Below are positions 1 to 49,013 of a stretch of 64,000 nt of DNA, piece after piece. Position numbers and translations under genes: made by a program. Location of the stretch: assembly GCF_000334915.1 (NCBI RefSeq), contig NZ_AMSF01000001.1, forward strand, positions 1 through 64,000, read 5' to 3'. The notes under the pieces were generated by a model. That model was given only the letters and a program-made list of their open reading frames with translations, made no database searches and was not told where the DNA came from. The stretch is from Dyella ginsengisoli LA-4. GTDB taxonomy: Bacteria > Pseudomonadota > Gammaproteobacteria > Xanthomonadales > Rhodanobacteraceae. Position 1 is the first letter of the stretch. Every line of letters begins with the position of its first letter.

Positions 1-1
1 C

Positions 2-691
2 TTTTTCACGTCCAATCTCCATCAGTTGGGGGATTGGACTCCAAACCACGGTGCTACTCAAAAGTGGGGGGACGTCGCTAGCATCACAGGCATCAAGACC
101 CCGACTAAGCTTGGTTTCGTGCAAACCCTGAGTTTTGCAGGGTTGACTATTAGGGATGCATCAATACATGTCTCGAAGGATGACTCGAATGCCGCTGAGG
201 ATGGCATCTTGGGATTAGATGTACTTCAGAAATTTCCGTCACTTACTTTCACGAAGGAAAAACTGTTTTTCGGGAAGCCGCCAGAGGCAGACTGCAAAAA
301 TCGCTTCACAGTCTCCTCGAACATATTTGGAGACATTATTGGAGTCAAAGCAGGCGGGACGCTTTATAACGGACAGCCCGCCGTCGCAATTCTAGACACG
401 GGAAACGCGACGGCCAAGGTCTCGCCGACATGGTGGGCCGTCAAGCACTTCCGTATTCCGGTCCTTGGCATCAAACGAGGTTACGCGGCCGACTCAAGTG
501 GACTTCATCCAATAGATCAGGGAGAAATTGAGGGCAGACTTGAGTTTCTTGGTAAAGAATATTCAGGGCCAATGACCGTTGAAGCAAACTACCAATTCGG
601 CGCCGTAGACTTCAATATTGGCATGCCTTTTTTCTATGGACACAACCTCTATGTGGACTTCAAGGAAAAAAGGATGTGCTTTTTTCACTAG
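2..691 (+). CDS. Retropepsin/pepsin-like aspartic protease, 5'-truncated by the window edge
   Basis: The reading frame is open from base 2, so the N-terminus lies outside the window. A TTG at 26 is only an internal candidate start. The visible part (about 229 residues) looks like two related halves. The first half ends in GILGLDVLQKFPSLTF and a short strand KEKLFF. The second carries AILDTGNATAKVS, the Asp-Thr-Gly signature of aspartic proteases, and ends in FNIGMPFFYGHNLYVDF and KRMCFF. Each half therefore ends in the hydrophobic 'G(L/M)-x-(F/V)(L/F)' strand that follows the active-site motif in retropepsin-like folds. The first DTG would be upstream of base 2. Base composition is clearly more AT-rich than the neighbours, which suggests recent acquisition. 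Substrate and location are unknown. The fold assignment is fairly firm; protease activity is inferred from one visible catalytic motif. Confidence 0.7.
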   Translation, partial: FFTSNLHQLGDWTPNHGATQKWGDVASITGIKTPTKLGFVQTLSFAGLTIRDASIHVSKDDSNAAEDGILGLDVLQKFPSLTFTKEKLFFGKPPEADCKNRFTVSSNIFGDIIGVKAGGTLYNGQPAVAILDTGNATAKVSPTWWAVKHFRIPVLGIKRGYAADSSGLHPIDQGEIEGRLEFLGKEYSGPMTVEANYQFGAVDFNIGMPFFYGHNLYVDFKEKRMCFFH

Positions 692-781
692 CCAATGTCA
701 ATTTGAAGCGTCGCGGAGGTGAGCGCTTCAGCGGGTGCCCCGACACCCCTTCAAACACCATTCGTCCCACTATCAGCGAAA

Positions 782-808
782 AAAAGGCCATGAAAATCAT
801 GGCCTTTT
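782..808. terminator. Bidirectional terminator between the protease-like gene and ssb
   Basis: A perfect 12-bp stem, AAAAGGCCATGA / TCATGGCCTTTT, closes a 3-nt AAA loop. The A-run on one side and T-run on the other make it usable in both directions, which fits the converging genes on either side. Confidence 0.85.
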
Positions 809-840
809 GATTACACGATAAATCCGGGATGTGGTGCAAA

Positions 841-1389
841 TTAGAACGGAATGTCGTCGTCGTCGAAACCGCCGGCATCCGCCGGAGCAGGCGCCTGCCG
901 AGGCATGTCGTTGCCGCCGCGCTGGAAGTCGTTGTTGTTGCCACCACGACCACCGCCGTAACCGCCACCGCCGCCGCCACCGGAACGGCCACCGCCGCCC
1001 TGGCCACGCTGCTGGTAGCCGCCGCCACCACCGCCACCCATGCCACCTTCGCTGCCGCCACCGAGCATCTGCATCTCGCTGGCCACGATGTCGGTGCTGT
1101 AGCGCTCCACGCCCTGCTTGTCGGTGTACTTGTCGGTGCGCAGCGAGCCCTCGATGTAGATCTGACGGCCCTTCTTCAGATATTCGCCGGCGATCTCGGC
1201 GAGGCGGCCGAACAGCTTCACGCGGTGCCACTCGGTGCGCTCCTGCTTCTCGCCGCTCTGCTTGTCGGTCCAGCTCTCGGAGGTGGCGACGCTGAGCGTG
1301 GCGATGGCGGTGCCACTGCCGGTGTAGCGCACCTCGGGATCGGCGCCCAGATTGCCGACCAGGATGACCTTGTTGATGCCACGTGCCAT
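841..1389 (-). CDS. ssb: Single-stranded DNA-binding protein
   Basis: This 182-residue protein coats single-stranded DNA during replication, repair and recombination and recruits partner proteins through its C-terminal tail. It begins [18 protein letters not shown], typical of the SSB OB-fold (about residues 1-110). A long glycine-rich linker with Arg, Gln and Asn follows (about 115-165). The acidic tip DDDDIPF binds RecQ, PriA, Exo I and others in this family. Length matches the E. coli protein. A GAGG ribosome-binding site lies just ahead of the ATG. The gene converges on the AT-rich gene to its left and shares a terminator with it. A possible -10 (TATGAT, 1485-1490) lies about 95 nt upstream, but with no clear -35. 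Confidence 0.97.
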
Positions 1390-1629
1390 GGAACTACCTC
1401 GCTGTGCTTGACCGGCCCGGGAGGCCGGCCGGCGGTCGTGGATGACCGGGTCACCGGCGTCGGCCGGCTCCGGAATGGCCCCCTATCATAGCCCGAGCCC
1501 ACCGCCGCGGCTCGGCCCGAGCCCGGGCCGGCATCTCCCGCCGCATCCGCGGCGCAGCGGCGCGCGTAAACACGTTGGACAGCGCCATGACCATGGCGCC
1601 ACCTGCTCCCGCCGGCGTGGAGGCCGACC

Positions 1630-2442
1630 TTGAGGACCATCCCCCTGTTGCCCGTGCTCGCGGGCCTGATCCTGTCTGCGGCTTCGGCCGGCCATGCCAC
1701 GGGCGCCGCGCCCACGGGCGGCACCGGCATCCGCCAGCTCGAGGGCCGGGCTTATGCCACCGGAGACGGTCACCTGATGTACACCGAGAGCCACTGGCTC
1801 TACGCCGACCACGGCGTTCCCGCCCGACTGGTGCTGTATCGCTGCCCCGATGGGCGGCCGTTCGCGCGCAAGTGGCTGCGCGAGGACGGGCCGGCCCAGG
1901 CGCCGGACTTCGAGCTGACCGACGGCCGCAGCGGCTACCGCGAGGGCGTGCGCCGGACCGGTGACGGCCGGGTCGTGTTCGTGCAGCCGGGCGGCGGGGC
2001 CACCGAGCGGAGCGCGAGACTGCCGGCTTCGCCCGATCTGGTGATCGACGCCGGCTTCGACGCCTACATCCGCCAGCACTGGGACCGTCTCGGCCGCGGC
2101 GATGCGGAGACGGTGCCATTCCTGATCCCCAGCCGCCTGGGCGCACTCGACTTCAAGGTGCGCCGCCTCGACGACGCGCTGGTCGAGGGGCGGCCGGCCC
2201 GTCGCTACCGGCTGGGGCTGGCCAGCTGGATCGGCTTCGCCCTGCCCCACATCGACGTGGCGTACGACGCCGCGAACCGCGAACTGCTGCAGTTCGTCGG
2301 ACTGGCCAACATCAGGGGCAGCAACGGCGACAACGTTCGGGCACGGATCGTGTTCGATCCGGCAGCGGAGCACCCGGCCACGCCCGGGTCGCTCGACGCG
2401 GCACGGGTCGAACCGCTGGACGGCCGCTGCCCGATTCCCTGA
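1630..2442 (+). CDS. Exported protein of unknown function
   Basis: This 270-residue protein starts at TTG with GTGGAGG a few bases upstream; the ATGs at 1587 and 1593 are in another frame. The N-terminus has a hydrophobic stretch (LLPVLAGLILSAASAGHATG) that reads as a Sec signal peptide cleaved near residue 23. The rest is soluble, rich in charged residues and predicted to be mixed beta structure. It has three mature-region landmarks: a YRCPDGRPFARKW segment near residue 70, paired aromatic strands around 170-210, and a C-terminal Cys (DGRCPIP). Two cysteines could form a periplasmic disulfide. I do not recognise a catalytic motif. It lies between ssb and the DedA-rhodanese gene and converges with the latter with a 9-nt gap. 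Confidence 0.7.
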   Translation: MRTIPLLPVLAGLILSAASAGHATGAAPTGGTGIRQLEGRAYATGDGHLMYTESHWLYADHGVPARLVLYRCPDGRPFARKWLREDGPAQAPDFELTDGRSGYREGVRRTGDGRVVFVQPGGGATERSARLPASPDLVIDAGFDAYIRQHWDRLGRGDAETVPFLIPSRLGALDFKVRRLDDALVEGRPARRYRLGLASWIGFALPHIDVAYDAANRELLQFVGLANIRGSNGDNVRARIVFDPAAEHPATPGSLDAARVEPLDGRCPIP

Positions 2443-2451
2443 GCGGGCGGC

Positions 2452-3423
2452 TCAGGCGGCGCGGTCGTGCGCTCCGCCGCGCTCGCCCGACAGGGTGGCC
2501 ACCGGGTAACCCGCCTCCTGCCAGGCCTCCAGCCCGCCCTGCAGTGGCCGCACGTTGCGGTAACCCAGTGACATCAGCAGGCTGGCGGCCTTGGCCGCCG
2601 AGACCTCGTTCGGGCAGCTGCAGTAGATCACCAGCTCGCGGTCCCGCGGCACGTCGGCCAGCGCCAGGTGAACGCCCTCCAGGTCGGCCAGCAGCGCGCC
2701 GGGGATGGCGCGCCCGTCCAGCAGTCGCGCCGCGGACGAACGCACGTCCACCACCACCGGGTTGCGTCCGGCGGCGATGGCGTCGTTGAGCTCCTCGACC
2801 GAGATCCGCGCCATGCGCAGCGAGACCAGCAGGCGGTGGCGCTGCCACCACTTGACGACGATGTAGAGCACCAGCAGGACGGCCAGCCCTTGCAGGGCGA
2901 CCACTCCGGCCTGCTCGATCGCGTCGATGACCCGGTCGATCTGCGGCGCGAAGACATAGCCCACACCCACCGCTGCGCCGGCCCACAGCAGCGAGCCGAG
3001 GCCGTCCAGCAGCAGGAAAGCGCCCGGGCGCAGGCCCATCGCGCCGACCAGCGGCGGCGCCACGGTGGACAACCCCGGCACGAACTTGGCCACCAGCAGC
3101 ATGCGCCCGCGCCAGCGCTGGAAGCGCAGCTCGGACTGTTTCACGCAGGAGTCGGGCGAGAGCGAGATGCGGCACAGCGTGCGCATCACGCCGCCGCCGA
3201 AGCGGCGACCGGCCAGGTACCAGCCGGTGTCGCTGATCAGGCTGGCCACCAGCGCCGCCAGCAACACGCCGGGAAGCGGCAGCCGGTCCCCGGCAGCCAG
3301 CGCGCCGGCGACCACCAGGGTCGGCACCGCCGGCACCGGCACGCCGGCCTGTTCGGCCAGCACGTTGACGAACACCACGAACAGGCCGTAGTGCGCGATC
3401 AGCGCAATGAGGTCATGAGCCAT
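2452..3423 (-). CDS. DedA-family membrane protein fused to a C-terminal rhodanese domain
   Basis: This 323-residue protein starts at the ATG giving MAHDLIALIAHYG; the frame extends further upstream but without family resemblance. Residues 1-195 are a DedA/SNARE-associated module with several membrane segments and the family's G-x-FVPG-like sequence (KFVPGLSTVAPPLVGAMG, about 113-130). DedA proteins are linked to phospholipid flipping, proton gradient maintenance and drug resistance. Residues about 205-315 are a rhodanese domain with DVRSS near 226-230 and an active-site-like loop CSCPNEVS, with Cys268 as the probable catalytic residue. It follows the MFS gene by 40 nt on the same strand, so the two are probably co-transcribed. 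The rhodanese part should face the cytoplasm. Substrate is unknown. Confidence 0.85.
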   Translation of the reverse strand: MAHDLIALIAHYGLFVVFVNVLAEQAGVPVPAVPTLVVAGALAAGDRLPLPGVLLAALVASLISDTGWYLAGRRFGGGVMRTLCRISLSPDSCVKQSELRFQRWRGRMLLVAKFVPGLSTVAPPLVGAMGLRPGAFLLLDGLGSLLWAGAAVGVGYVFAPQIDRVIDAIEQAGVVALQGLAVLLVLYIVVKWWQRHRLLVSLRMARISVEELNDAIAAGRNPVVVDVRSSAARLLDGRAIPGALLADLEGVHLALADVPRDRELVIYCSCPNEVSAAKAASLLMSLGYRNVRPLQGGLEAWQEAGYPVATLSGERGGAHDRAA

Positions 3424-3463
3424 GCGCGACGTCCCTGGCGCGGCCGCAACCGGCCGCAGGACG

Positions 3464-4690
3464 TCATGATTGGGTCGACAGGCCCGTCTTGCAATCGGCC
3501 TCGGCAACGACCGCCCGGGCGGCGATCCGGCGCGCACCGACCACCACCAGCGGCAGCCACAGCAGGGTCATCGCCGCGGCGCAGGCGAACACGCCGGCCG
3601 GACCCAGCCGCCCCAGCGCGTAACCGCCCAGCGCACCGCCGACGAAGGCGCCGACGAACTGGCTGGTGGAATACGCCCCCATCGCCGCGCCGCGCAGCTC
3701 GGCCGGCGCCAGCCGCGAGACCAGGCTCGGCAGCGAGGCCTCCAGCAGGTTGAAGCCCGAGAAGAACAGCGTGGCGGCGACGCCGAGCAGGAGCACGTGA
3801 TCGCCCCCCAGCGCGAACAGCACCAGCGCGACACCGATCACCACGATGCAGGCCTGCACGATGCGCAGGCTCTGCGCCACTTCCTTCATCCGGTGCATCA
3901 TCCCGCCCATCACCAGCGCGGCGATCACCATCACCGGCAGGTACAGCTCCCAGTGCTTCTGCACCGGCAGGTGCAGCTGGTTGACCAGCAGCAGCGGCAG
4001 GCCGACGAAGCTGGCGGTCAGCAGCATGTGCAGGAAGAACACCGAACCATTGAGCACCATCAACCGGCTGTCGCCCAGCATCGAGGCGACGCCGCCGAAA
4101 CTGCTCGCCGCAGGCGCCTTCGAACGCTCCGGCGTAGGCACGATGAGCCACAGCAGGATCAGCGCGAACAGCGCCAGCAGCGAGGTCGCGGCGAACAGGC
4201 CGGGCAGACCGTCGATCGCTTCCAGCGGCGGCCCGAGGATCAGCGCGAGCAGGAAGGCCATGCCGATCGACACGCCGATGATGCCCATCACCTTGGAGCG
4301 GTTCTCCTCGCGGGTAAGGTCCGCCGCCAGCGCGGTGCCCGCGCCGGCCACCGCTCCCATGCCCTGCAGGGCACGACCGATCACGATACCCACGAGGGTA
4401 TGCGAGGCCGCGGCAACCAGGCCGCCGGCGATGAACACGCCCAGGCCCAGGGTGATCGCCGGCTTGCGGCCGATGCGATCGGACAGCATGCCGAGCGGGA
4501 TCTGCAGCAGCATCTGGCCCAGGCCGTAGACGCCCAGCGCCATGCCGATCAGCCAGTCCGACGCATCGGGCATCGTCTGCGCGTACACCGAGAACACCGG
4601 CATGATCAGGAACAGGCCGAACAGCCGCAGGCTGATCACGCAGGCCAGGGTCAATGCGCTGCGGCGCTCGAGTCGGGAAAGTGCACTCAC
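3464..4690 (-). CDS. MFS transporter, YajR-like
   Basis: This 408-residue inner-membrane protein has about 12 hydrophobic segments and the MFS motif A in loop 2-3 (GMLSDRIGRKPAI, about residues 67-79). It resembles YajR-type drug/proton antiporters. E. coli YajR has an extra C-terminal cytoplasmic domain of about 60 residues that is absent here. The start is GTG with no clear Shine-Dalgarno sequence; a perfect TATAAT (4723-4728) lies 32 nt upstream. It is divergent from ispB and upstream of the DedA-rhodanese gene. The transported compound cannot be read from sequence. Confidence 0.9.
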   Translation of the reverse strand: MSALSRLERRSALTLACVISLRLFGLFLIMPVFSVYAQTMPDASDWLIGMALGVYGLGQMLLQIPLGMLSDRIGRKPAITLGLGVFIAGGLVAAASHTLVGIVIGRALQGMGAVAGAGTALAADLTREENRSKVMGIIGVSIGMAFLLALILGPPLEAIDGLPGLFAATSLLALFALILLWLIVPTPERSKAPAASSFGGVASMLGDSRLMVLNGSVFFLHMLLTASFVGLPLLLVNQLHLPVQKHWELYLPVMVIAALVMGGMMHRMKEVAQSLRIVQACIVVIGVALVLFALGGDHVLLLGVAATLFFSGFNLLEASLPSLVSRLAPAELRGAAMGAYSTSQFVGAFVGGALGGYALGRLGPAGVFACAAAMTLLWLPLVVVGARRIAARAVVAEADCKTGLSTQS

Positions 4691-4722
4691 GGGAGGTTCC
4701 AGATCGGCGAAGGTATCCGGCG

Positions 4723-4799
4723 ATTATACGAGTCGTGACCGGATTGGCCGTTGTGGTGACGTGTCGCGCCATCGCGCGATCCTGCGCCCGCCCTATAAT
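4723..4799. promoter_or_regulatory. Back-to-back -10 elements for the MFS gene and ispB
   Basis: On the minus strand TATAAT lies at 4723-4728, and on the plus strand TATAAT lies at 4794-4799. Both match the sigma70 -10 consensus exactly. Neither has a good -35 at 16-18 nt. The plus-strand element would start transcription near 4806, only a few bases before an in-frame GTG (4809) and about 24 nt before the ATG (4830) of ispB. Confidence 0.55.
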
Positions 4800-4829
4800 C
4801 GGGCGCTTGTGACCACCCTGACCGCAAAG

Positions 4830-5828
4830 ATGCCGATGCCCGCCGACGCCCCCCGCCCCGACGATTTCACCCGAGTGCGCGAGCTGGCCGCCGGCGACAT
4901 GCAACGCGTCGATGCGCTGATCCGCCATCGCCTGTCATCCGACGTGGTGCTGATCAACCAGATCGCCGAACACATCATCGCCGGCGGCGGCAAGAGATTG
5001 CGACCGATGCTGCATGTGCTGGCGGCAGGCGCGGCCGGCTACAGCGGCGACAAGCACACCAAGCTGGCGGCGATCATCGAGTTCATCCACACCTCCACGC
5101 TGCTGCACGACGACGTGGTCGACGAGTCCGACCTGCGCCGCGGCCGCAAGACCGCCAATGCGCTGTGGGGCAACGCGGCGAGCGTGCTGGTCGGCGACTT
5201 CCTGTACTCGCGCTCGTTCCAGCTGATGGTCGAACTGGACGACATGCGCATCATGCGCATCCTCGCCGACACCACCAACACCATCGCCGAAGGCGAGGTG
5301 CTGCAGCTGCTGAACATCGGCAACGCCGACGTGGACGAAGCGGCCTACCTGGCGGTGATCGAGCGCAAGACCGCGGTGCTGTTCGCCGCCGCCACCGAGC
5401 TCGGCGGCCTGCTCGGCGGCCTGCCGGACGACCAGGTCGCCGCGCTGCGCAGCTACGGCATGGAGCTGGGCTACGCCTTCCAGATCGCCGACGACCTGCT
5501 CGACTACGTCAGCGATGCCGACACGCTGGGCAAGAACATCGGCGACGACCTCGCCGAGGGCAAGCCGACCCTGCCGCTGATCTACGCGCTGCAGAAAGCC
5601 AGCCCCGAGCAGGCACAGTCGCTGCGCCACGCGATCGAACACGGCGGGCTGGATTCGCTCGACCGCATCGTCGCCGCCATCCGCGATTCCGGCGCGCTCG
5701 AACGCACCCATGAACGCGCCCTGCAGCACGCCCGCGCCGCCCGCGCGGCGCTGGCCGGACTGGCCGACTCGCCGCATCGCGACGCGCTGCTGGCGCTGGC
5801 CGACTACTCGGTCGAACGCCGGCACTGA
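4830..5828 (+). CDS. ispB: Polyprenyl (octaprenyl) diphosphate synthase
   Basis: This trans-prenyltransferase extends farnesyl diphosphate with isopentenyl units to make the ubiquinone side chain. With the ATG at 4830 it has 332 residues, close to E. coli IspB (323). It carries both aspartate-rich motifs that bind the Mg-diphosphate substrates: DDVVD at 94-98 (after LLH) and DDLLD at 221-225 (after FQIA). It also has GGGKRLRP near 52-59. The in-frame GTG at 4809 would add seven residues and sits only 9 nt past a perfect TATAAT, so a very short leader with the GTG start is possible. Two ubiquinone hydroxylases at 15-18 kb belong to the same pathway. The exact chain length (C40) is inferred from the family. 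Confidence 0.93.
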   Translation: MPMPADAPRPDDFTRVRELAAGDMQRVDALIRHRLSSDVVLINQIAEHIIAGGGKRLRPMLHVLAAGAAGYSGDKHTKLAAIIEFIHTSTLLHDDVVDESDLRRGRKTANALWGNAASVLVGDFLYSRSFQLMVELDDMRIMRILADTTNTIAEGEVLQLLNIGNADVDEAAYLAVIERKTAVLFAAATELGGLLGGLPDDQVAALRSYGMELGYAFQIADDLLDYVSDADTLGKNIGDDLAEGKPTLPLIYALQKASPEQAQSLRHAIEHGGLDSLDRIVAAIRDSGALERTHERALQHARAARAALAGLADSPHRDALLALADYSVERRH

Positions 5829-5863
5829 CCCGGCACCGCGTGGCCGCGCATCGACGGCCCCGA

Positions 5864-5885
5864 AAAGGGCTTCGCACAGCCCTTT
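5864..5885 (+). terminator. Possible weak terminator after ispB
   Basis: An 8-bp stem AAAGGGCT / AGCCCTTT with a 6-nt loop lies 35 nt after the ispB stop. The T-run is only three bases, so termination may be partial. Confidence 0.4.
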
Positions 5886-5932
5886 GACGCCATTTGCCCC
5901 CGACGACACGAATCTGTGGCAGGGTCTGGCGA

Positions 5933-8599
5933 ATGGAGATCAGATCGATCCAAATTTTCGCGCGACGGTGTGCCTGTACCCTGCTCGCAGGGCTGCTGCC
6001 GGGCCTGGCTACGGCCGGTCCAACAGCGCTTCGCACGATGCGCCTGGATCACGGCTGGGAACTTCGCCTCGCGCCCGGCTCACCGGCGACAAAGGCGCAT
6101 CCGGAAGGCGCCCAATGGCAGGTCGCCACCGTGCCGGGCAGCGTGCAGGCCACCCTGCTCGCCCACGGCCAGTTGCCCAACCCGGACTGGCGCGACAACG
6201 AAGCGAAGGTGCAGTGGGTCGGACTGGCCGACTGGCAGTACCGGCGGCGTTTCACCGTCGATCCCGCGCTGCGCGGCGAGCGCCATCTCGCGCTGGTGTT
6301 CGACGGCCTGGACACCCTGGCCGACGTCACCCTCGACGGACGCCCGGTATTGCACGCGGACAACATGTTCCGGCACTGGCGCGTACCGCTCGACGGCCTC
6401 GACCGGGCCGCGGAGCACACGCTGGAAATCACTTTCCACTCGCCCGTGACACGGCTGCAGCCGTGGCTGGCGAAACAGCCCTACGCGCTGCCCGGCGAGT
6501 TCGACTCCGCCTTTGGCGACGAACCTCCCGGTCGCCAGGTCGCCAACTACGTGCGCAAGGCGGCCTACCAGTTCGGCTGGGACTGGGGCCCACGGATCAT
6601 CACCGAGGGCATCTGGCAGCCGGTGCGGCTGGAAGCATGGAGCGGCTGGCGACTGGACGATTTCCATGTGGCGCAACTGCACGTCGACGCCGACCAGGCA
6701 CAACTGCGCGCCGGCTTCGCGATCCGCGCCGATGCCGCGGGCCCGGCGCAGCTCACCGTGCACTGGCGCGCACCCGATGGTCGCGAGGGTTCGGCCACGC
6801 GCGCGGTGCAGCTCGTCGCCGGCGAGCAGCAGCTCGACCTGCCACTGACCATCGCCCATCCGCAACGCTGGTGGCCGGCCGGCTACGGCGCGCCGAACCT
6901 CTACGCAATGTCGGCCGAAGTCACCGTCGGCGACCGCGTGGTCGCGCAGGAGCAACGCGAGATCGGCCTGCGTTCGATCGAGCTGCGCCGCACGCCCGAC
7001 CGCTGGGGTCGCAGCTTCGCCTTTGTGGTCAACGGCGTGCCGGTGTTCGCCAAGGGGGCCAACCTGGTGCCGTTCGACTCCCTGCCCTCGCGCACCACCG
7101 ACGCCCGCATGCGTCGCCTGCTGGACGATGCGCGCGACGCGCACATGAACATGCTGCGCGTGTGGGGCGGTGGCACCTACCTGCCCGATGCGTTCTACGC
7201 GATGGCCGACCGCCGCGGCCTGATGATCTGGCAGGACTTCATGTTCGGCGGAGCGATCCCGCCGCCCGATGCCGCCTTCCGCGCCAACGTGAAGCAGGAG
7301 GCGATCGAGCAGGTGACCCGGCTGCGCAACCATCCGTCGATCGTGCTGTGGTCGGGCAACAACGAAGTGCAGACCAGCTGGGAGAGCTGGGGCGACCGGC
7401 AGGCGTTCCGGCGGCGCATCGGCCCGGCCGAGAGCATGCGCATCGAACAGGGCATGCATGCGCTGTTCGACGGCACCCTGCACGAGGTCGCCGCTCAGCT
7501 TGATGCCGACGTGCCGTACTGGCCCGGCTCGCCGGAGAGCGACGATGGCGCCGCGGCCAACAGCCCGGACAGCGGCGATGCCCACGTGTGGGATGTGTGG
7601 GGTGGCTCGGCACCGGTCGAGGACTACCTGAAGACCACACCGCGCTTCCAGTCGGAGTTCGGCCTGCAGTCGCTGCCCGCGATGGCGACGATCCGGACGT
7701 TCGCCACGCCGCAGGACCTGGCGATCGACTCGCCGGTGATGCGAGCACACCAGAAATTCGACCACGGCAACGGCAACCAGCGGCTGCTGCTCTACGTGCG
7801 TCGCGGCTACGGCGAGCCGAAGGATTTCGGATCGTTCGCCTACCTCAGCCAGGTCATGCAGGCGGACGGCATCGAACTGGCGGTGGACCACCTGCGCAGC
7901 GCACGACCGCGCAGCATGGGCGCGCTGTACTGGCAGCTCAACGACGTGTGGCCGGGGGCGTCGTGGTCGAGCATCGACGTCGACGGCGGCTGGAAGGCGC
8001 TGCAGTTCCGCGCCCGGCACTTCTACGCACCGGTGCGCGTGGTGCCGCTGCGCCGGGACGGGCGTACCGCGGTGTTCCTGGTGTCCGACCGCACCACGCC
8101 GCTCGCCGCGCAGCTGCGCACGCGGGTGCTCGACGTGAACGGTACGATGGTCTCGGACACCATGCGCGCCGTGACGCTGCCGCCGCTGGCCAGCACGCGC
8201 ATCGACGACCTCGCCGATGCCGACCTGCTGCACGGCGCCGACCCGCGCCGCACCGTGGCAGTGTTCGATCTGGTCGCCGACGGCCAGGTGCTTTCGCGCC
8301 ATCTGCTGTATTTCCGCCGCGCGGTGGATCTGGTCCTGCCCGATCCGCAGATCAGGGCCACGCTGCGGCGGGACGATCGTGGCCTCGTTCTCGAACTGCA
8401 GGCCAAACGCTTCGCCCGCGCCGTATGGATCGACTTCGGCGACCTCGACGCCACGCTGTCGGACAACGGTATCGACCTGCTCCCCGGCGAACGCGTCACG
8501 TTGCGGGTGACATCGCGCGATACGCCCGACACGCTGCGCCGGGCGATGCACCTGCGCTCGCTGGTCGACGCCACCCTGCCGCATGGAACCACGCCATGA
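5933..8599 (+). CDS. Exported GH2 beta-mannosidase
   Basis: This 888-residue glycoside hydrolase family 2 enzyme probably removes beta-linked mannose, such as the Man-beta-1,4-GlcNAc of N-glycan cores or mannan fragments. The ATG at 5933 gives a Sec-type signal peptide (hydrophobic CTLLAGLLPGLATAGP). Layout follows GH2: a jelly-roll sugar-binding domain (about 35-200), an Ig-like domain, a TIM barrel (about 330-640) and C-terminal beta domains. The acid/base is E478 in LWSGNNEVQ and the nucleophile is E575 in FQSEFGLQS. A barrel strand motif (MNMLRVWGGGTY) is typical of beta-mannosidases. Its stop overlaps the next gene's ATG (ATGA), so the two are translationally coupled. It is the first gene of a three-mannosidase operon. 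Beta-mannosidase is favoured over galactosidase by overall similarity; the exact linkage is inferred. Confidence 0.9.
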   Translation: MEIRSIQIFARRCACTLLAGLLPGLATAGPTALRTMRLDHGWELRLAPGSPATKAHPEGAQWQVATVPGSVQATLLAHGQLPNPDWRDNEAKVQWVGLADWQYRRRFTVDPALRGERHLALVFDGLDTLADVTLDGRPVLHADNMFRHWRVPLDGLDRAAEHTLEITFHSPVTRLQPWLAKQPYALPGEFDSAFGDEPPGRQVANYVRKAAYQFGWDWGPRIITEGIWQPVRLEAWSGWRLDDFHVAQLHVDADQAQLRAGFAIRADAAGPAQLTVHWRAPDGREGSATRAVQLVAGEQQLDLPLTIAHPQRWWPAGYGAPNLYAMSAEVTVGDRVVAQEQREIGLRSIELRRTPDRWGRSFAFVVNGVPVFAKGANLVPFDSLPSRTTDARMRRLLDDARDAHMNMLRVWGGGTYLPDAFYAMADRRGLMIWQDFMFGGAIPPPDAAFRANVKQEAIEQVTRLRNHPSIVLWSGNNEVQTSWESWGDRQAFRRRIGPAESMRIEQGMHALFDGTLHEVAAQLDADVPYWPGSPESDDGAAANSPDSGDAHVWDVWGGSAPVEDYLKTTPRFQSEFGLQSLPAMATIRTFATPQDLAIDSPVMRAHQKFDHGNGNQRLLLYVRRGYGEPKDFGSFAYLSQVMQADGIELAVDHLRSARPRSMGALYWQLNDVWPGASWSSIDVDGGWKALQFRARHFYAPVRVVPLRRDGRTAVFLVSDRTTPLAAQLRTRVLDVNGTMVSDTMRAVTLPPLASTRIDDLADADLLHGADPRRTVAVFDLVADGQVLSRHLLYFRRAVDLVLPDPQIRATLRRDDRGLVLELQAKRFARAVWIDFGDLDATLSDNGIDLLPGERVTLRVTSRDTPDTLRRAMHLRSLVDATLPHGTTP

Positions 8600-10038
8600 C
8601 GATGACCCGCCGCACCCTGCTCAAGCTCGCCGGCGCCGCCGCCGGTGGACTGGCCTCGGGCACCGGCTTCGCCCGGGGGCAGGCCGCAGCCACCACCCCT
8701 CGCTACGCCAGCCACCGCCCGCCGCCGGCCAAACGCCTGTTCACCAGCGCCGCGGTGGAGCGGCAACTGGCACAGACCACGGCGAAGATCGGCGACCCGG
8801 AACTGGCCTGGCTGTTCGGCAACTGCTACCCGAACACGCTGGATACCACCGTGCACCTTGACACCCTGGACGGTCGACCGGACACCTTCATCGTCACCGG
8901 CGACATCGACGCGATGTGGTTGCGCGACTCGTCCGCCCAGGTCTGGCCCTACCTGCCGCTGGCGCGCGGGGACAAGGCGCTGCAGCGGCTCTACCGCGGG
9001 CTGATCCACCGCCAGGCCCGCTGCATCGCGATCGACCCTTACGCCAACGCTTTCCTGCCCGACCCACGCAGCCGCGCCGCGCTGAGCTGGGCGCTGCACG
9101 ACGACACCGACATGCGCCCCGGCGTGGCCGAGCGCAAATGGGAGATCGATTCGCTGTGCTGGCCGATCCGCCTGGCCCACGGCTACTGGCAGGCGAGCGG
9201 CGACACGGCCCCGTTCGACGACGACTGGCGCGCGGCCATGCACGCGGTGCTCGCCACCTTCCGCACCCAGCAGCGCAAGCACGATCGCGGCCCGTACCAC
9301 TTCCAGCGCCTGTCCGAAGTGGCCTCGGAGAACCCGCCATTGAGTGGCTACGGCAACCCGACCCGGCCGGTCGGACTGATCCATTCGATGTTCCGCCCCT
9401 CCGACGACGCCTGCCTGTATCCGCTGTCGGTGCCGTCCAACTTCTTCGCCGTCACCTCGCTGCGGCAGCTGGCGACGATGAGCGACACCATCCACCACGA
9501 CCGGCAATTCGCCGACGACTGCCGCGCGCTGGCCGACGAGGTGGAACAGGCGCTGCACCGCCATGGTCCGTTGACCGGCAACGACGACGTCTGGGCCTAC
9601 GAGGTGGACGGCTTCGGCAACCAGGTGTTCATGGACGACGCGAATTCGCCCAGCCTGTCCAGCCTGGCCTACCTCGGCGCCTGCGCTGCCGATGACCCAC
9701 GCTACCGACGCACCCGTGCGCTGGCCTGGAGCAACCGCAACCCGTACTTCTTCGAGGGCAAGGCCGCGCAGGGTATCGGTGGCCCTCACCAGGGATTGCG
9801 GATGATCTGGCCGATGTCGATCACCATGCGCGCACTGACCAGCGACAGCGACCGCGAGATCGCGCAGTGCCTGCACTGGCTGAAGACCACCCATGCCGGC
9901 ACCGGCTTCATGCACGAGGCGTTCGACCAGGACGACCCGTCGAAATACACCCGCCCCTGGTTTGCCTGGGCCAACAGCCTGTTCGGCGAGTTGATCGTCA
10001 CGCTGGCCGAACAGCGCCCGCGGCTGCTGCAGGCCTGA
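8596..10038 (+). CDS. Exported GH125 exo-alpha-1,6-mannosidase
   Basis: This 480-residue protein belongs to the GH125 (DUF1237) family, metal-independent alpha-mannosidases that release alpha-1,6-linked mannose. It has a twin-arginine signal (MTMTRRTLLKLAGAAAGG), so it is probably exported folded by Tat. Family landmarks are TGDIDAMWLRDSSAQ (about 101-115), a WEIDSLCWP segment, and the C-terminal GPHQGLRMIWPMS (about 396-408). The start ATG overlaps the stop of the beta-mannosidase; a second ATG two codons later is equally possible. Together with the GH92 enzyme downstream it could trim the branches of high-mannose glycans before the beta-mannosidase acts on the core. Confidence 0.92.
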   Translation: MTMTRRTLLKLAGAAAGGLASGTGFARGQAAATTPRYASHRPPPAKRLFTSAAVERQLAQTTAKIGDPELAWLFGNCYPNTLDTTVHLDTLDGRPDTFIVTGDIDAMWLRDSSAQVWPYLPLARGDKALQRLYRGLIHRQARCIAIDPYANAFLPDPRSRAALSWALHDDTDMRPGVAERKWEIDSLCWPIRLAHGYWQASGDTAPFDDDWRAAMHAVLATFRTQQRKHDRGPYHFQRLSEVASENPPLSGYGNPTRPVGLIHSMFRPSDDACLYPLSVPSNFFAVTSLRQLATMSDTIHHDRQFADDCRALADEVEQALHRHGPLTGNDDVWAYEVDGFGNQVFMDDANSPSLSSLAYLGACAADDPRYRRTRALAWSNRNPYFFEGKAAQGIGGPHQGLRMIWPMSITMRALTSDSDREIAQCLHWLKTTHAGTGFMHEAFDQDDPSKYTRPWFAWANSLFGELIVTLAEQRPRLLQA

Positions 10039-10075
10039 GCCATCCCACCCTCCCCGCCCACGGAGAAACAGCACC

Positions 10076-12514
10076 ATGGTGACCCGTCGCCGCTTCCTGC
10101 AAGGTTCCGCCACCGCCCTCACCCTGCTCGGCACCGGACTGGCGCGCACGACGCCACTGGCGGCCGCGCTGGGAGACGCGCTGCACGCGCCGGCATCCCA
10201 CGCGGCGCAGGGCGCAGGACTTGCCCGCTACGTCGACGTGTTCGTCGGCACCGGTGGCCATGGCCACACCTATCCCGGTGCCTCGGTGCCGTTCGGCATG
10301 GTGCAGCTCAGCCCCGACACCCACGACGCCGGCTGGGACGCCTGTTCGGGCTACCACCAGGGCGACGGCTCGATCATGGGCTTCTCGCACACCCACCTGT
10401 CCGGCACCGGTGCCTCGGACATGCTCGACGTGCTGGTGATGCCGGCGCAGGGTCCGGTGGAACTCGAGCCGGGCGACCGCGGCCGGCCGGACATCAACTA
10501 CCACTCGCGCTACGACCTGCCGCCGGCACCGGGCAAGCCGCAGCAGTTGCCGGTCGACGCCGTGATCACGCCGGGCAAGGGCTATCGGCAGCGCTTCAGC
10601 CAGGCCGAGGAAACGGCACATCCCGGCTATTACCGGGTGCGCCTGCAGGATCACGACATCCTCGCCGAGCTCACTGCCACCGAGCGCACCGGCCTGCACC
10701 GCTACACCTTCCATCGCCCGGGCAAGGGCCATCTGCTGGTGGACCTGGCGCACGGCTTCCACGACGACCCGAAGACCCCGTGCAAGGTCAGCGACGCCAC
10801 CCTGCGCATGGTCGGCCACGACACCCTGGTCGGCTCGCGCCGCGTACACCAGTGGGCCAACGGACGGACCATCCACTTCGCGATGAAGGTCTCACGCCCA
10901 TTCGTCCGCGCCGAACTGTTCAGCGACGACCGTTCGCAGGGCGATACCGGCGAAGCCCGCGGCACGCACCTGAAGGCGGCGCTGCATTTCGACGAGGTGG
11001 GCGAGGCGCCGCTGCTGGTCAAGGTCGGCCTCTCCGGCGTCGACATCGACGGCGCGCTGCGCAACCTGGAACGCGAACAGCCCGGCTGGGACTTCGACGG
11101 GACCCGTGCGCGGGCACTGGCCGCATGGGAGAGCGAACTCGGGCGCATCCGCATCGATGCGCCATCGGACGAGGTGAAGCGGATCTTCTACACCTCGCTC
11201 TACCACACCATGCTGGCGCCCACGCTGTTCGATGACGTCGACGGCCGCTATCGCGGCATGGACGCGAAGATCCACCAGCTCGATGCAGGCCAGCACAACT
11301 TCAGCACCTACTCGCTGTGGGACACCTATCGGGCGCTGCATCCGCTGTTCACGCTGGTGCAGCCCGAGCGCGTACCGGTGCTGGTGAACGGCCTGATCCG
11401 CATGGCCGCGGAAAGCCCGGACGGCCCGCCGGTGTGGCCGCTGCAGGGCGTGGAGACCGGCTGCATGATCGGCTACCACTCCGCCTCGGTGGTGGCCGAG
11501 GCGATCGCCAAGGGCTTCCCCGGCATCGACGTGGCCAGCGCCTGGCCGCTGTTCCGCCAGCGCGCCATGGTCGACGATTACCGCGGCCTGCCGTACTACC
11601 GCAAGCTCGGCTACATCCCCAGCGACAAGGACTGGGAGGCGGTCAGCAAGACGCTGGAATACTGCTACGACGACTGGGCCGTGTCACACATCGCCGACGC
11701 GGCCGGTGCGCACGATGAGGCGAAGGCGCTGCGCGAGCGTTCGCGCAACTACCGCAACGTGTTCGACAAGTCGGTCACCTTCGTGCGTCCTCGCGGCGCC
11801 GACGGAAAGTGGCTGGAGCCGTTCTCGCCCGATGCCGTCGGCCACTCGGACAAGTGGCGCGACTTCACCGAATCCAATGCCTGGCAGGCGACCTTCCTCA
11901 ACCAGCACGACCTGGCCGAGTACATGACGCTGTTCGGTGGCGACAAGGCGTTCGAGGCCAAGCTGGATGGCCTGTTCAACGCGCCCCCCTCGCTGTCCGG
12001 CAACGCGCCACCGGACATCGCCGGCATGGTCGGCCAGTACGCGCACGGCAACGAACCCAGCCACCACGTGGCCTACCTGTACGCCTACGCCGGCGCGCAC
12101 CACAAGACGCAGTCGCGCGTGCGCATGCTGCTGGACACCATGTACCGCGCTGCGCCCGACGGTCTGGCCGGCAACGAGGACTGCGGCCAGATGAGCGCGT
12201 GGTACGTGCTCGGCGCGCTCGGCCTGTATGCAGTGGACCCGGTCAGCACCCACTACGTGTTCGGCAGCCCGCTGCTGGACCGCGCCGAACTCGCCCTGGG
12301 CGGCGACCGCACCCTGGTGATCGAGACGAAGGGCAACGGCCAGGACGCACCGTACATCCAGTCGGTGACATGGAACGGCCAGCCGTGGACGCGCAGCTGG
12401 ATCGGTCATGCCGAGCTGGCCAGGGGCGGGCATCTGGTGTTCACCATGGGCCGCACCCCGAACCCGGCATTCGGTCGTGACGTGGCGGACCGGCCGCCAT
12501 CGATGCAGGTTTAA
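10076..12514 (+). CDS. Exported GH92 alpha-mannosidase
   Basis: This 812-residue protein is a GH92 enzyme, a calcium-dependent, inverting exo-alpha-mannosidase family active mainly on alpha-1,2 linkages (also 1,3, 1,4 and 1,6 in some members). A Tat signal (TRRRFLQGSATALTLLG) precedes the N-terminal domain, which opens with the family sequence VFVGTGGHGHTYPGASVPFG near residue 58. The catalytic half carries HGNEPSHHVAYLY (E660, candidate general acid) and GNEDCGQMSAWYV (D702), both strongly conserved in the family. It follows the GH125 gene by 37 nt and ends the operon before a strong hairpin. No transporter, sulfatase or endoglycosidase gene lies next to it. Confidence 0.94.
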   Translation: MVTRRRFLQGSATALTLLGTGLARTTPLAAALGDALHAPASHAAQGAGLARYVDVFVGTGGHGHTYPGASVPFGMVQLSPDTHDAGWDACSGYHQGDGSIMGFSHTHLSGTGASDMLDVLVMPAQGPVELEPGDRGRPDINYHSRYDLPPAPGKPQQLPVDAVITPGKGYRQRFSQAEETAHPGYYRVRLQDHDILAELTATERTGLHRYTFHRPGKGHLLVDLAHGFHDDPKTPCKVSDATLRMVGHDTLVGSRRVHQWANGRTIHFAMKVSRPFVRAELFSDDRSQGDTGEARGTHLKAALHFDEVGEAPLLVKVGLSGVDIDGALRNLEREQPGWDFDGTRARALAAWESELGRIRIDAPSDEVKRIFYTSLYHTMLAPTLFDDVDGRYRGMDAKIHQLDAGQHNFSTYSLWDTYRALHPLFTLVQPERVPVLVNGLIRMAAESPDGPPVWPLQGVETGCMIGYHSASVVAEAIAKGFPGIDVASAWPLFRQRAMVDDYRGLPYYRKLGYIPSDKDWEAVSKTLEYCYDDWAVSHIADAAGAHDEAKALRERSRNYRNVFDKSVTFVRPRGADGKWLEPFSPDAVGHSDKWRDFTESNAWQATFLNQHDLAEYMTLFGGDKAFEAKLDGLFNAPPSLSGNAPPDIAGMVGQYAHGNEPSHHVAYLYAYAGAHHKTQSRVRMLLDTMYRAAPDGLAGNEDCGQMSAWYVLGALGLYAVDPVSTHYVFGSPLLDRAELALGGDRTLVIETKGNGQDAPYIQSVTWNGQPWTRSWIGHAELARGGHLVFTMGRTPNPAFGRDVADRPPSMQV

Positions 12515-12566
12515 TACGCTTGCATCCGCCCGCGGAGAGCCTGGCGAAGCGCGCGGCCCCATGCCT

Positions 12567-12592
12567 GAAGCCCCGGGGTTTCCCGGGGCTTC
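12567..12592. terminator. Terminator hairpin between the GH92 and sulfotransferase genes
   Basis: An 11-bp perfect stem, GAAGCCCCGGG / CCCGGGGCTTC, with a GTTT loop, lies 53 nt after the GH92 stop and between converging genes. There is no long T-run, so efficiency is uncertain. Confidence 0.6.
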
Positions 12593-12656
12593 CTGTTCAG
12601 CCATCCCTCGACGGTGAACGCCGCTTCGCGCCCGGTCCGACCGAAGAAACCGGCGA

Positions 12657-14264
12657 TCAGGCCAGGGCCAGCCGCAGCGCCTCCAGTTGCGCAGCGTAAT
12701 GTTGCCACTCACCGAGTCCACGGCTGTGGATGGCCTCGCGAACCTGAGCGCTGCTCGGCGTCGCCACCGGTGCGGTATTGCGTTCGGGGTGCAGGCAATC
12801 CTCTTCCAGATCCAGCCGGCAATACGCCAGCACCTCGCGCATCACCCTCTCCGGCTGCTGGACCAGCGCGGCATATGAAACATCGAGCACGGCACCGGGG
12901 AGCGTGGCGTGCCAATGTCTCATCAGACGAACGTACTGCCCGTGGTAATGCGCCAGCGACGCCAGGTCGTAGCTGTAGGCCGAGGTATTGCCGAACATGG
13001 CCTTGAGATTGGAAAAGCACACGTCCATCGGTTCCCGCACCATGTGCAGGATCGGGGCATGTGGCAATGCTCGGTGAATGATGTCGACGAACGGGAAGTT
13101 CGTCGGCAGCTTGTTGATGTAGTACCCACGTCCCTGCGCGCGCCACTGAGTCTGCCTCAGGTAGCGCGCTCCGAGCTCCTTGAAATCGATGTCCCTGCTG
13201 CGATTGATGAGCTCCACCCTGCGCTGCACGCCGCCATCGGGCACATCCGCGAGCCACTGCAGCTGACGCAGCAGCTCATTGATCTCCCCCGCGGAAACCA
13301 CCTCCGAATGGTTCGACAACATGCGATCGAGCAGGGTCGACCCGGACCGGGGCATGCCAACGATGAAGACGGGTATGGGGCCACCGAACTCAGGCAGCTG
13401 CGTGCTGACGGCCGGACCGGCCAGGGGCAGGCGAATGATCGCGTCCGTGACTGCAGCTTCACCGGCAGCATCGTACGGATTGAGCGCATGCATGATTGCG
13501 TTGCTGCGCTCCAGCGCCGACCAGGCCTCGGCGTATTGCCCGAGGTCATCGAGTTCCTTGAAGAGCGCGTGTTCGAATTCGGCACGTACAAGATTGTCCG
13601 CGGCGACATGGCTGTCGACCGGGATACGGCCAAGCTGTGCCCGAAGGAAGTCGATGTGGTTCGATCCTGCGGTCTGCCGGCGCAGGCGAGCTCGCGCCAT
13701 CGCCGCACCGCTGAAGGTCGGCCAGCGGCGCAAGCACGTCTCGAGCACCGCCCCTGCCGCCTCCAACTGACCGGAAAACTGAAGCAGCATGGCGTGCAGG
13801 TAGTGCTCGTCCGGCGTGTCGACACCCGCAGCCATTGCGCGCTCGAGCAGGACAAGTGCCGCAGGAATCTCATTGAGCATCCAGCGCAGGTGGGCCTGCA
13901 CGGCGAGCAACGAGGCTGACGATTCGTGCGCGATCGAGGGATGCTCAAGGCAAGCCCGAGCCGCAATGGTTTCGCCGCGGATGCACAGGCGCCGGGCCAG
14001 CTCCGTGAGCAGCGCGGCATCATCGGGAAGCCCGGACATGACTGCCAGCAGTTCCCTGGTGGATGCGCGCAGTTGGCCACGTTCGAGCAACACGTCGGAA
14101 AGTTGCATGCGGGCGACGGCATCGTGGGGCACCCGCTCGAGCAGGGTCTCGAGTGTTGCCTGCGCAGCAACCAGCTGGCGATTTTCAATGTACTGCCGCG
14201 CCCGGCGCCGAAGGCGATCCTCCGACGCGTGAAGGGGGTCGATTGTCATCGGCAGATGTTGCAT
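12657..14264 (-). CDS. TPR-repeat sulfotransferase
   Basis: This roughly 535-residue protein combines an N-terminal array of helical TPR-type repeats (about residues 10-270) with a C-terminal sulfotransferase domain. The PAPS-binding P-loop is clear (IVGMPRSGSTLLDRML, about 301-316). It is followed by the family's ILHMVREPMDVCFSN, the 3'-phosphate-binding Arg-x-(P)-x-D segment. The enzyme would transfer sulfate from PAPS to a protein, glycan or small molecule; the acceptor is unknown. I used the ATG at 14264; a second ATG (14249) and an upstream TTG (14285) are in frame, and none has a strong ribosome-binding site. No PAPS synthesis gene is nearby. It converges with the mannosidase operon and is probably expressed on its own. 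Confidence 0.88.
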   Translation of the reverse strand: MQHLPMTIDPLHASEDRLRRRARQYIENRQLVAAQATLETLLERVPHDAVARMQLSDVLLERGQLRASTRELLAVMSGLPDDAALLTELARRLCIRGETIAARACLEHPSIAHESSASLLAVQAHLRWMLNEIPAALVLLERAMAAGVDTPDEHYLHAMLLQFSGQLEAAGAVLETCLRRWPTFSGAAMARARLRRQTAGSNHIDFLRAQLGRIPVDSHVAADNLVRAEFEHALFKELDDLGQYAEAWSALERSNAIMHALNPYDAAGEAAVTDAIIRLPLAGPAVSTQLPEFGGPIPVFIVGMPRSGSTLLDRMLSNHSEVVSAGEINELLRQLQWLADVPDGGVQRRVELINRSRDIDFKELGARYLRQTQWRAQGRGYYINKLPTNFPFVDIIHRALPHAPILHMVREPMDVCFSNLKAMFGNTSAYSYDLASLAHYHGQYVRLMRHWHATLPGAVLDVSYAALVQQPERVMREVLAYCRLDLEEDCLHPERNTAPVATPSSAQVREAIHSRGLGEWQHYAAQLEALRLALA

Positions 14265-14448
14265 CGTGCTTCTGCGCCAAGGCAAATGCCTGCCGCCGCG
14301 GTCCAGGTCGGGAACCGGCCGCCTGTTGCCGGTCGGACGCCACGCACATCACCTCGCAATCGTGGCAACCACCCCGCCCCCGGCCATCCGGATCCCGCGC
14401 CGTCCGATGCGCTTTTGCCAGGGGCAACGCTGTCCGGTGACCCGGGAC

Positions 14449-15237
14449 CTAGTCGGTGCCGGCGAACGCGTGATCCAGCCAGTCGTGCATCAGCCGGTAG
14501 CTGCGCGCGGCGGCGCGGGCGTCGTACATGCAGCCGGGGCTGTGCTGGTCGGTCTCGGTGAAGCAGTGCACGGCGTGGCCGAGCACCACGAACTGCCAGT
14601 CGGCCGGGCTGCCGCGCATCTCGTTCATGAAGGCATCGGCATCCTTCATGGTCCAGCTGTCGTCGGCGCCGTTCATCACCAGCACGCGGGCCTTGATCTG
14701 CTTCGCCAGGGCGGGATCGTCGGTGGTAAGGCCACCGTGGAACGACACCACCGCCGCCACGTCGGCACCGCTGCGCGCCAGGTCGAGCACGGCCGTGCCG
14801 CCGAAGCAGAAGCCGATCGCGGCCAGGTGCGTCAGGTCGATCGGCGCATCCTTGGCCTGCGCCTTGAGCTGCGCCAGTGCCTCGTTCATCCGCTGACGCA
14901 TCAGCGGGCGGTTGGCATACAGGGGCTTGGTCGCGACCTCGGCCTGGTCATTGCTGGTTGGCCGTACGCCCTCGCCGTAGAGGTCGGTAACCAGGATCAC
15001 GTAGCGCGAGCCGGCGATCATCTCGGCCTTCTTCACGGCCATGGCGTTGACACCGTACCAGTTCGGCACCATCACCAGCCCGGGGCGCTTGGCCGAAGTC
15101 GCGTTGTCGTAGACCAGCACGCTCTTGAAGGTGGTCCCGTCCCGGGTCCAGGTCACCGTCTTGTGCACCATCGCCGCGTGGGCGGCAACCGGACCGAGGA
15201 CAAGCAGCAGCAGCGAGGCAAACCGAAGCAGGCGCAT
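14449..15237 (-). CDS. Exported dienelactone-hydrolase-family protein
   Basis: This 262-residue alpha/beta-hydrolase has a cleavable signal peptide (LLRFASLLLLVLGPVAAHA), so it acts outside the cytoplasm. The nucleophile elbow is GFCFGG with Cys144 as the nucleophile, the hallmark of the dienelactone hydrolase family as opposed to serine hydrolases. The acid is probably D192 or D193 (NGADDSW) and the base H221 or H224 (GHAVHCF). Classical dienelactone hydrolases are cytoplasmic and belong to aromatic degradation. No aromatic pathway gene is nearby here, so the substrate is open. It lies 28 nt downstream of the quinone hydroxylase pair on the same strand and may be transcribed with them. Confidence 0.87.
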   Translation of the reverse strand: MRLLRFASLLLLVLGPVAAHAAMVHKTVTWTRDGTTFKSVLVYDNATSAKRPGLVMVPNWYGVNAMAVKKAEMIAGSRYVILVTDLYGEGVRPTSNDQAEVATKPLYANRPLMRQRMNEALAQLKAQAKDAPIDLTHLAAIGFCFGGTAVLDLARSGADVAAVVSFHGGLTTDDPALAKQIKARVLVMNGADDSWTMKDADAFMNEMRGSPADWQFVVLGHAVHCFTETDQHSPGCMYDARAAARSYRLMHDWLDHAFAGTD

Positions 15238-48641: not shown

Positions 48642-48650
48642 TGGAAAAAG

Positions 48651-49013
<363 letters not shown>

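Follow-up and report, generated by a model that had tools for sequence, protein, structure and literature searches.

A GH2-GH125-GH92 mannosidase operon at a contig end of Dyella ginsengisoli LA-4, probably one arm of a dispersed LacI-type mannoside regulon

The window, that is, the whole stretch of 64,000 nucleotides of Dyella ginsengisoli LA-4 that was analysed, starts at the end of contig C1 of a genome that comes in 99 contigs and 4.55 Mb. Close to this end lie three mannosidase genes, here called the trio, and a few features that bear on their interpretation:

1..842, no strand: contig end, sequence unmatched in relatives, lying between ssb and the adjoining genes of contig C24
4761..5828, forward strand: polyprenyl synthetase gene, ispB-like, its reading frame perhaps starting at 4542
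5933..8599, forward strand: GH2 exo-beta-mannosidase, 888 amino acids (reading frame, Pfam, solved relatives)
5939..5954, no strand: predicted LacI-type operator palindrome ATCAGATCGATCCAAA in the first GH2 codons (matrix score)
8596 or 8602..10038, forward strand: GH125 exo-alpha-mannosidase, 480 or 478 amino acids (reading frame, Pfam, conserved residues)
10076..12514, forward strand: GH92 alpha-mannosidase, 812 amino acids (reading frame, Pfam, conserved residues)
12568..12591, no strand: GC-rich perfect hairpin AAGCCCCGGGGTTTCCCGGGGCTT 3' of GH92 (read by eye)

A sequence-only reading had described an operon of three mannosidase genes of families GH2, GH125 and GH92 at 5933-12514. Open reading frames and Pfam agree on the genes, and we keep the operon because of its layout: a single strand, a 4-nt overlap between GH2 and GH125, and a 37-nt gap between GH125 and GH92. 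Profile search also confirms the families. The GH2 protein matches Glyco_hydro_2_N2 (5.9e-50), Mannosidase_ig and Ig_mannosidase, the TIM-barrel model alone falling just short of its cut-off (19.2 versus 21); the second protein matches Glyco_hydro_125 over its full length (4.7e-162), and the third Glyco_hydro_92 (1.5e-168), with both N-terminal and catalytic domains present. The closest solved structures are 6bye for GH2 (1047 bits), 2p0v for GH125 (536 bits) and 7zgm for GH92 (580 bits). The GH2 match to 6bye, 6byc, 6byg and 6byi, which we take to be of X. citri origin, covers residues 35-882, reaches the same 1047 bits for 6byc, and shows no difference in domain layout.

Catalytic residues are in place in all three proteins. 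The GH2 enzyme has, by motif, Glu478 and Glu575 intact, presumably the acid/base and the nucleophile, and both Glu motifs align with 6bye. In GH92, Glu599 and Asp702 are kept, which we assume to be acid and base; in GH125, the acid Asp268, the base Glu439 and Arg451 are kept. The alpha-1,6-mannosidase XmGH125 of Xanthomonas manihotis belongs to the same family, and the residues K185, D274, E447 and R459 given for it in a passage of PMC9425025 correspond, by offset mapping, to K179, D268, E439 and R451 here. By profile and catalytic residues, the three genes are ordinary members of GH2, GH125 and GH92.

Compared with the same-genus locus L042, differences at codon positions 1/2/3 number 39/40/163 in GH2, 13/15/84 in GH125 and 29/22/136 in GH92; synonymous versus other codon differences number 133 versus 74, 75 versus 25 and 124 versus 47. 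The third-position bias is as expected under purifying selection on all three genes and, together with the domains, rules out chance reading frames. Other long reading frames that overlap the operon, on the reverse strand or in other frames, are taken as GC-rich shadows. The polyprenyl synthetase gene is a conserved 5' neighbour of the trio in the genus and lies outside the system. A sigma-70 scan of 5600-12800 found no promoter. The hairpin at 12568..12591 is a possible end of the operon; it has no T run, and a terminator scan did not call it.

The sequence-only reading had also placed export signals on all three proteins, of Sec type on GH2 and of twin-arginine type on the other two, and by motif this stands. 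Signals were read as RRx[FLM][L..] followed by a hydrophobic stretch: the GH2 N-terminus MEIRSIQIFARRCACTLLAGLLPGLATA is Sec-like, with an RR pair that the Tat consensus does not follow, while the N-termini of GH125, MTRRTLLKLAGAAAGG, and GH92, MVTRRRFLQGSATALTLLGTG, are both of Tat type. The genome encodes TatC. The split is conserved in relatives, where a rough classifier gives Tat calls to 72/80 GH125, 59/74 GH92 and 4/45 GH2 proteins. The plain RR motif occurs in 77/80, 64/74 and 1/45 of them, as counted in the best 80 loci with named records on proteins matched to near the N-terminus; the 74 GH92 proteins of these export counts include some paralogues outside the trio. Other proteins seldom carry the motif: GH3 (3/25), GH20 (1/18), GH18 (0/8), GH29 (1/11), TonB receptors (1/9) and the GH92a of the cassette discussed below (0/6). 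Judged by motif, the mixed Sec/Tat route is real and general in relatives. A putative Tat signal had been noted earlier on a Xanthomonas GH125, in a passage of PMC9425025. A conserved division of labour between Tat and Sec inside one operon is documented here. That the Tat signals fall on just these two enzymes, GH125 and GH92 of the trio, could mean, in a reading that we hold to be very unlikely, that both are exported as a pre-folded working unit.

GH125 is matched in 80/147 genomes of the family. Among 96 distinct loci (the best 80 loci with named records plus 20 family loci), 52 have GH2, GH125 and GH92 in that succession on the same strand, with loci truncated by a contig end scored as misses. 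Of these 52 loci, 24 have GH3 between the genes, 10 a seed-like receptor on the upstream side, 9 a Nix-type GH18, and 6 a LacI gene like that of the cassette. Among the matches listed, Dyella lutea (L089) is the nearest named relative, with a GH125 that is 95% identical.

The closest known system with these families is the N-glycan cluster of Xanthomonas campestris, reportedly described by Dupoiron et al. in 2015 under the Nix gene names. Our comparison set consists of the 11 named Xanthomonas loci among the matches listed, and X. campestris is not among them. The kinship with xanthomonad loci that had been proposed holds: the gene order is the same, and GH92 is 61-62% identical in Xanthomonas loci. 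Five of the 11 have the order GH2-GH125-GH92 with GH3 between and also carry GH18; one (L132) has the same order, again with GH3 between, and no GH18; in the remaining five (L114, L122, L126, L128, L133) no GH2 is seen in the stretch. The Nix-type cluster differs from the trio in having GH20 and, in 5/11, GH18 in the same stretch, and no palindrome at its head, whereas the trio of LA-4 is detached from GH20 and GH18 and has the palindrome. Pfam finds no GH20, GH3 or GH29 among the genes around the trio (window 26-15237, ssb excepted).

No GH18 or GH85 endoglycosidase had been seen next to the operon, and the whole genome agrees: it holds no GH85, no GH76, and no close relative of the Xanthomonas-type GH18, the presumed endoglycosidase. 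A relative of the latter with at least 70% identity is present in 8/21 genomes, the source of the query included, and in 0/4 genus members. The three weak GH85 matches among the 21 genomes overlap the Xanthomonas-type GH18. The system is apparently one without an endoglycosidase, as far as Xanthomonas-type GH18, GH85 and GH76 are concerned. The best match to the Nix-type GH18, on contig C33, was rejected as a candidate: it is 25% identical and sits inside a 1140-aa fusion with polysaccharide deacetylase and glycosyltransferase. This GH18-like, polysaccharide deacetylase and GT2 frame (L038, 9663-13085) has matches of similar length in several relatives. The only GH20 of the genome is on contig C13.

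The trio could be a plain remnant of a Nix-type N-glycan cluster that has lost GH18, GH20, GH3, GH29 and the transporter, with no regulatory tie to the mannose cassette described below. The same trio does stand with GH18, GH20 and GH3 in Xanthomonas (L121, L123, L125, L127, L131) and in Nitrospirillum (L129, L135), and the absence of Nix-type GH18 and GH85 from the genome fits a loss. We nevertheless find this account quite unlikely, given the mainly synonymous differences to L042 and two results described below: the common palindrome and the conserved nearness to a mannose cassette.

The alpha-1,2 linkage that had been assigned to GH92 is not supported by its sequence. When the trio GH92 is aligned to 2wvx, Pro-Asp is found in place of His584-Glu585 of BT3990, the pair that we take to be the alpha-1,2 determinant. 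Alpha-1,3 is a fair candidate, because of this replacement and of a passage in the review PMC10154615. The substrate itself might be a fungal or yeast alpha-mannan instead of an N-glycan, a reading that is compatible with a regulon and that we regard as doubtful. According to PMC10154615, yeast mannan is a substrate of GH92 and GH125 in B. thetaiotaomicron, and GH92, GH2 and GH125 occur together in a marine operon with GH76. However, the genome has no GH76 endo-mannanase, and a beta-mannosidase in the same operon suits an N-glycan core better.

The trio had been said to stand alone, without a transporter or a regulator. This isolation comes from the limits of the window and from the contig end, together with dispersal of the genes. 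In the same-genus genome G029, an unbroken stretch aligns first with C1, as far as position 843, and next with C24, beginning at position 1131, the two matches overlapping by 3 nt; G045 has the same abutment, and G003 has the same C1-C24 order, with C24 matched from 3732. From these relatives, we infer that C1 and C24 are adjacent in LA-4 as well. An insertion between ssb and an ABC-permease gene probably broke the assembly, because there is extra sequence at both contig ends, with a 16-mer in common. These unmatched parts are C1:1-842 and positions 1-1130 of C24 (L004), and the shared 16-mer is GGGGGGACGTCGCTAG.

What the contig end appears to hide, judging by these alignments, is the linkage of the trio to a mannose cassette. 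Near its start, C24 carries a GH92 gene (GH92b), an AGE-family epimerase, a PfkB-family kinase, a FucP/GluP-type transporter, a LacI gene and a divergent second GH92 gene (GH92a). The two GH92 genes that the genome has beside that of the trio are both on C24. The one labelled C24b (L004 7942-10335, reverse strand) is divergent in sequence: the catalytic Glu is kept, and the HGNEP motif present in both other GH92 proteins is missing. GH92b lies about 12.8 kb from the trio's first base in G029 and 11.9 kb in G045; in G003, which has no GH92b, the distance to the AGE gene is 9.7 kb. These distances, 10-13 kb in three same-genus genomes, are arithmetic from match coordinates. Four other loci (L043, L092, L111, L119) have the cassette immediately next to the trio, and L103 has just the LacI gene there.

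The AGE protein of the cassette is closest to structures 3gt5 and 5x32, the latter presumably a mannose isomerase, and it scores 237 bits, short of the NCBIfam D-mannose isomerase cut-off of 600. The kinase is also short of its cut-off (206 bits versus 450 for fructokinase), and the transporter is above the cut-offs of both GluP and FucP.

A palindrome was first spotted by eye in the promoters of the cassette and of the trio, the start of the GH2 gene of LA-4 included. Since the motif had in this way been picked with the data in view, the operator model TTTRGATCGWTCYAAA was trained only on sites outside the genus: its matrix comes from six sites in LacI promoter regions. In the window, the best score, 21.5, is attained at 5939-5954, and the next is 10.1. 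The highest maximum in 60 first-order Markov simulations of 64 kb is 19.7, a value that the core filter makes slightly low. With at most two mismatches, the whole genome has sites at four places in 4.55 Mb, and the reversed control has 0. They are the head of the trio, position C24:15191 in the gap between GH92a and the LacI gene, which spans C24:14031-15086, position C21:2315 before a TonB receptor gene, and C80:17405. The last is inside a gene, has no identical counterpart in the other six genomes, and is treated as spurious. A site similar to it is present at C1:2776111 of G045.

The same model was applied to relatives. Among loci with GH2, 26/59 have a site at the head of the trio or of the receptor just before it, against 77/2950 random windows from the same loci. 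When the loci connected with training sites, six in number (L043, L051, L092, L103, L111, L119), are left out, the proportion is 20/53, with a Fisher p of 1.8e-17 against the random windows, which is not to be taken literally, the loci being related. The site is absent from the other 33/59 trio heads, including every one of the 10 that have a Nix-type GH18 gene: 0/10 versus 26/49 elsewhere (p 0.0016), a difference that is confounded with phylogeny. Two forms of the trio can be told apart: loci with a Nix-type GH18, and operator-bearing loci without it. LacI-type palindromes also occur about 250-500 nt before GH125 in L055 (8683-8797), L058 (9126) and L092 (7623), which suggests an internal regulatory site in some relatives.

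The palindrome at 5939-5954 could be an accident of coding, in the codons I-R-S-I-Q, with the trio outside the LacI regulon in the genus. The site has two mismatches and lies within codons 3-8, where coding constraint could preserve it; it is missing in L040 (G003) and present in L041 (the same as L089) and L042, so that 3/4 genus members have it. We judge a coincidence unlikely, since this is the best site in 64 kb and one of four in the genome, and since in several other loci, such as L093, L101, L106, L108 and L110, the palindrome lies 110-290 nt 5' of the conserved GH2 part.

The transporter that was thought to be missing has a candidate elsewhere in the genome. The site at C21:2315 is a perfect palindrome, 125 nt before a TonB-dependent receptor gene that is cut by a contig end, the next gene lying beyond that end. 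G029 and G045 have this perfect site ahead of a full receptor of 1050 aa, followed by a protein of 505 aa which is a tryptophan halogenase by Pfam (G029 scanned), and G046 has two sites before a similar pair. In L194, the tryptophan-halogenase-family protein directly 3' of the operator-bearing TonB receptor is at 12732-14249. We propose the C21 receptor as a candidate transporter for the trio, on the strength of its operator; it is only about 27-29% identical to a trio-linked receptor of relatives. The receptor of LA-4 most similar to the trio-linked ones is on C13 (513 bits). It was set aside: its neighbours are GH20 and what look like genes for GlcNAc use, and no palindrome with two mismatches or fewer goes with it.

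By sequence, one predicted operator would be shared by regulator, inner-membrane transporter, catabolic enzymes and TonB receptor, as in a LacI-type regulon. Regulation of mannose and mannoside use by LacI-type proteins is already known as a class, ManR, with five groups (PMC4052901), and the regulon predicted here shares this control with it; the main text of that paper names no xanthomonad. In the literature searched, RegPrecise being outside its scope, we found no link of the GH2-GH125-GH92 trio to a LacI operator.

We consider it probable that the trio serves a dispersed LacI-family mannoside regulon as the arm that trims mannose outside the cytoplasm; it reads as a dispersed variant, apparently without endoglycosidase, of the xanthomonad N-glycan/mannoside system. 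Starting from gene families, catalytic residues, synteny in relatives, the common palindrome and the Tat/Sec split, we infer a substrate, an order of steps, a repressor-operator pair, an effector, a sub-cellular site and the enzyme activities. Oligosaccharides from N-glycans or mannan would enter the periplasm, probably via a co-regulated TonB-dependent receptor. In that compartment, or extracellularly should the enzymes be secreted onward, alpha-linked mannose would be taken off by GH92 and GH125, which Tat would export in folded form, and beta-1,4-mannose would be cut by GH2, a Sec-exported enzyme. Mannose would be taken up by the FucP/GluP-type symporter, turned into fructose by the AGE-family mannose isomerase, and the fructose into fructose-6-phosphate by the fructokinase. 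The LacI-type repressor encoded in the cassette would bind TTTRGATCGWTCYAAA at three places, namely the LacI/GH92a gap, the stretch ahead of the receptor gene and the head of the trio; mannose or a derivative would lift the repression of all arms. A bolder version, which we hold to be very unlikely, is that scattered loci coordinated by LacI strip mannose from intact glycoproteins without any endoglycosidase, with GH125 and GH92 as a pre-folded unit.

A carbohydrate system with parts seemingly missing from a single window can thus grow much fuller once a common operator is traced through the genome: a regulator, one 16-bp site and one receptor gene are now identified as candidates. The points that seem worth keeping are that a LacI-type regulon with a receptor is predicted, that an endoglycosidase is apparently lacking, and that the Tat/Sec split is conserved.

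Two minor observations concern the rest of the window. A gene with TPR and sulfotransferase parts (12657-14264, reverse strand) adjoins the trio; it has the same place in L041, not in L040, L042 or L055, and a relative with 38% identity adjoins GH125 in L045. Further along, a class A RNase P RNA is found at 48649-49011 on the reverse strand.
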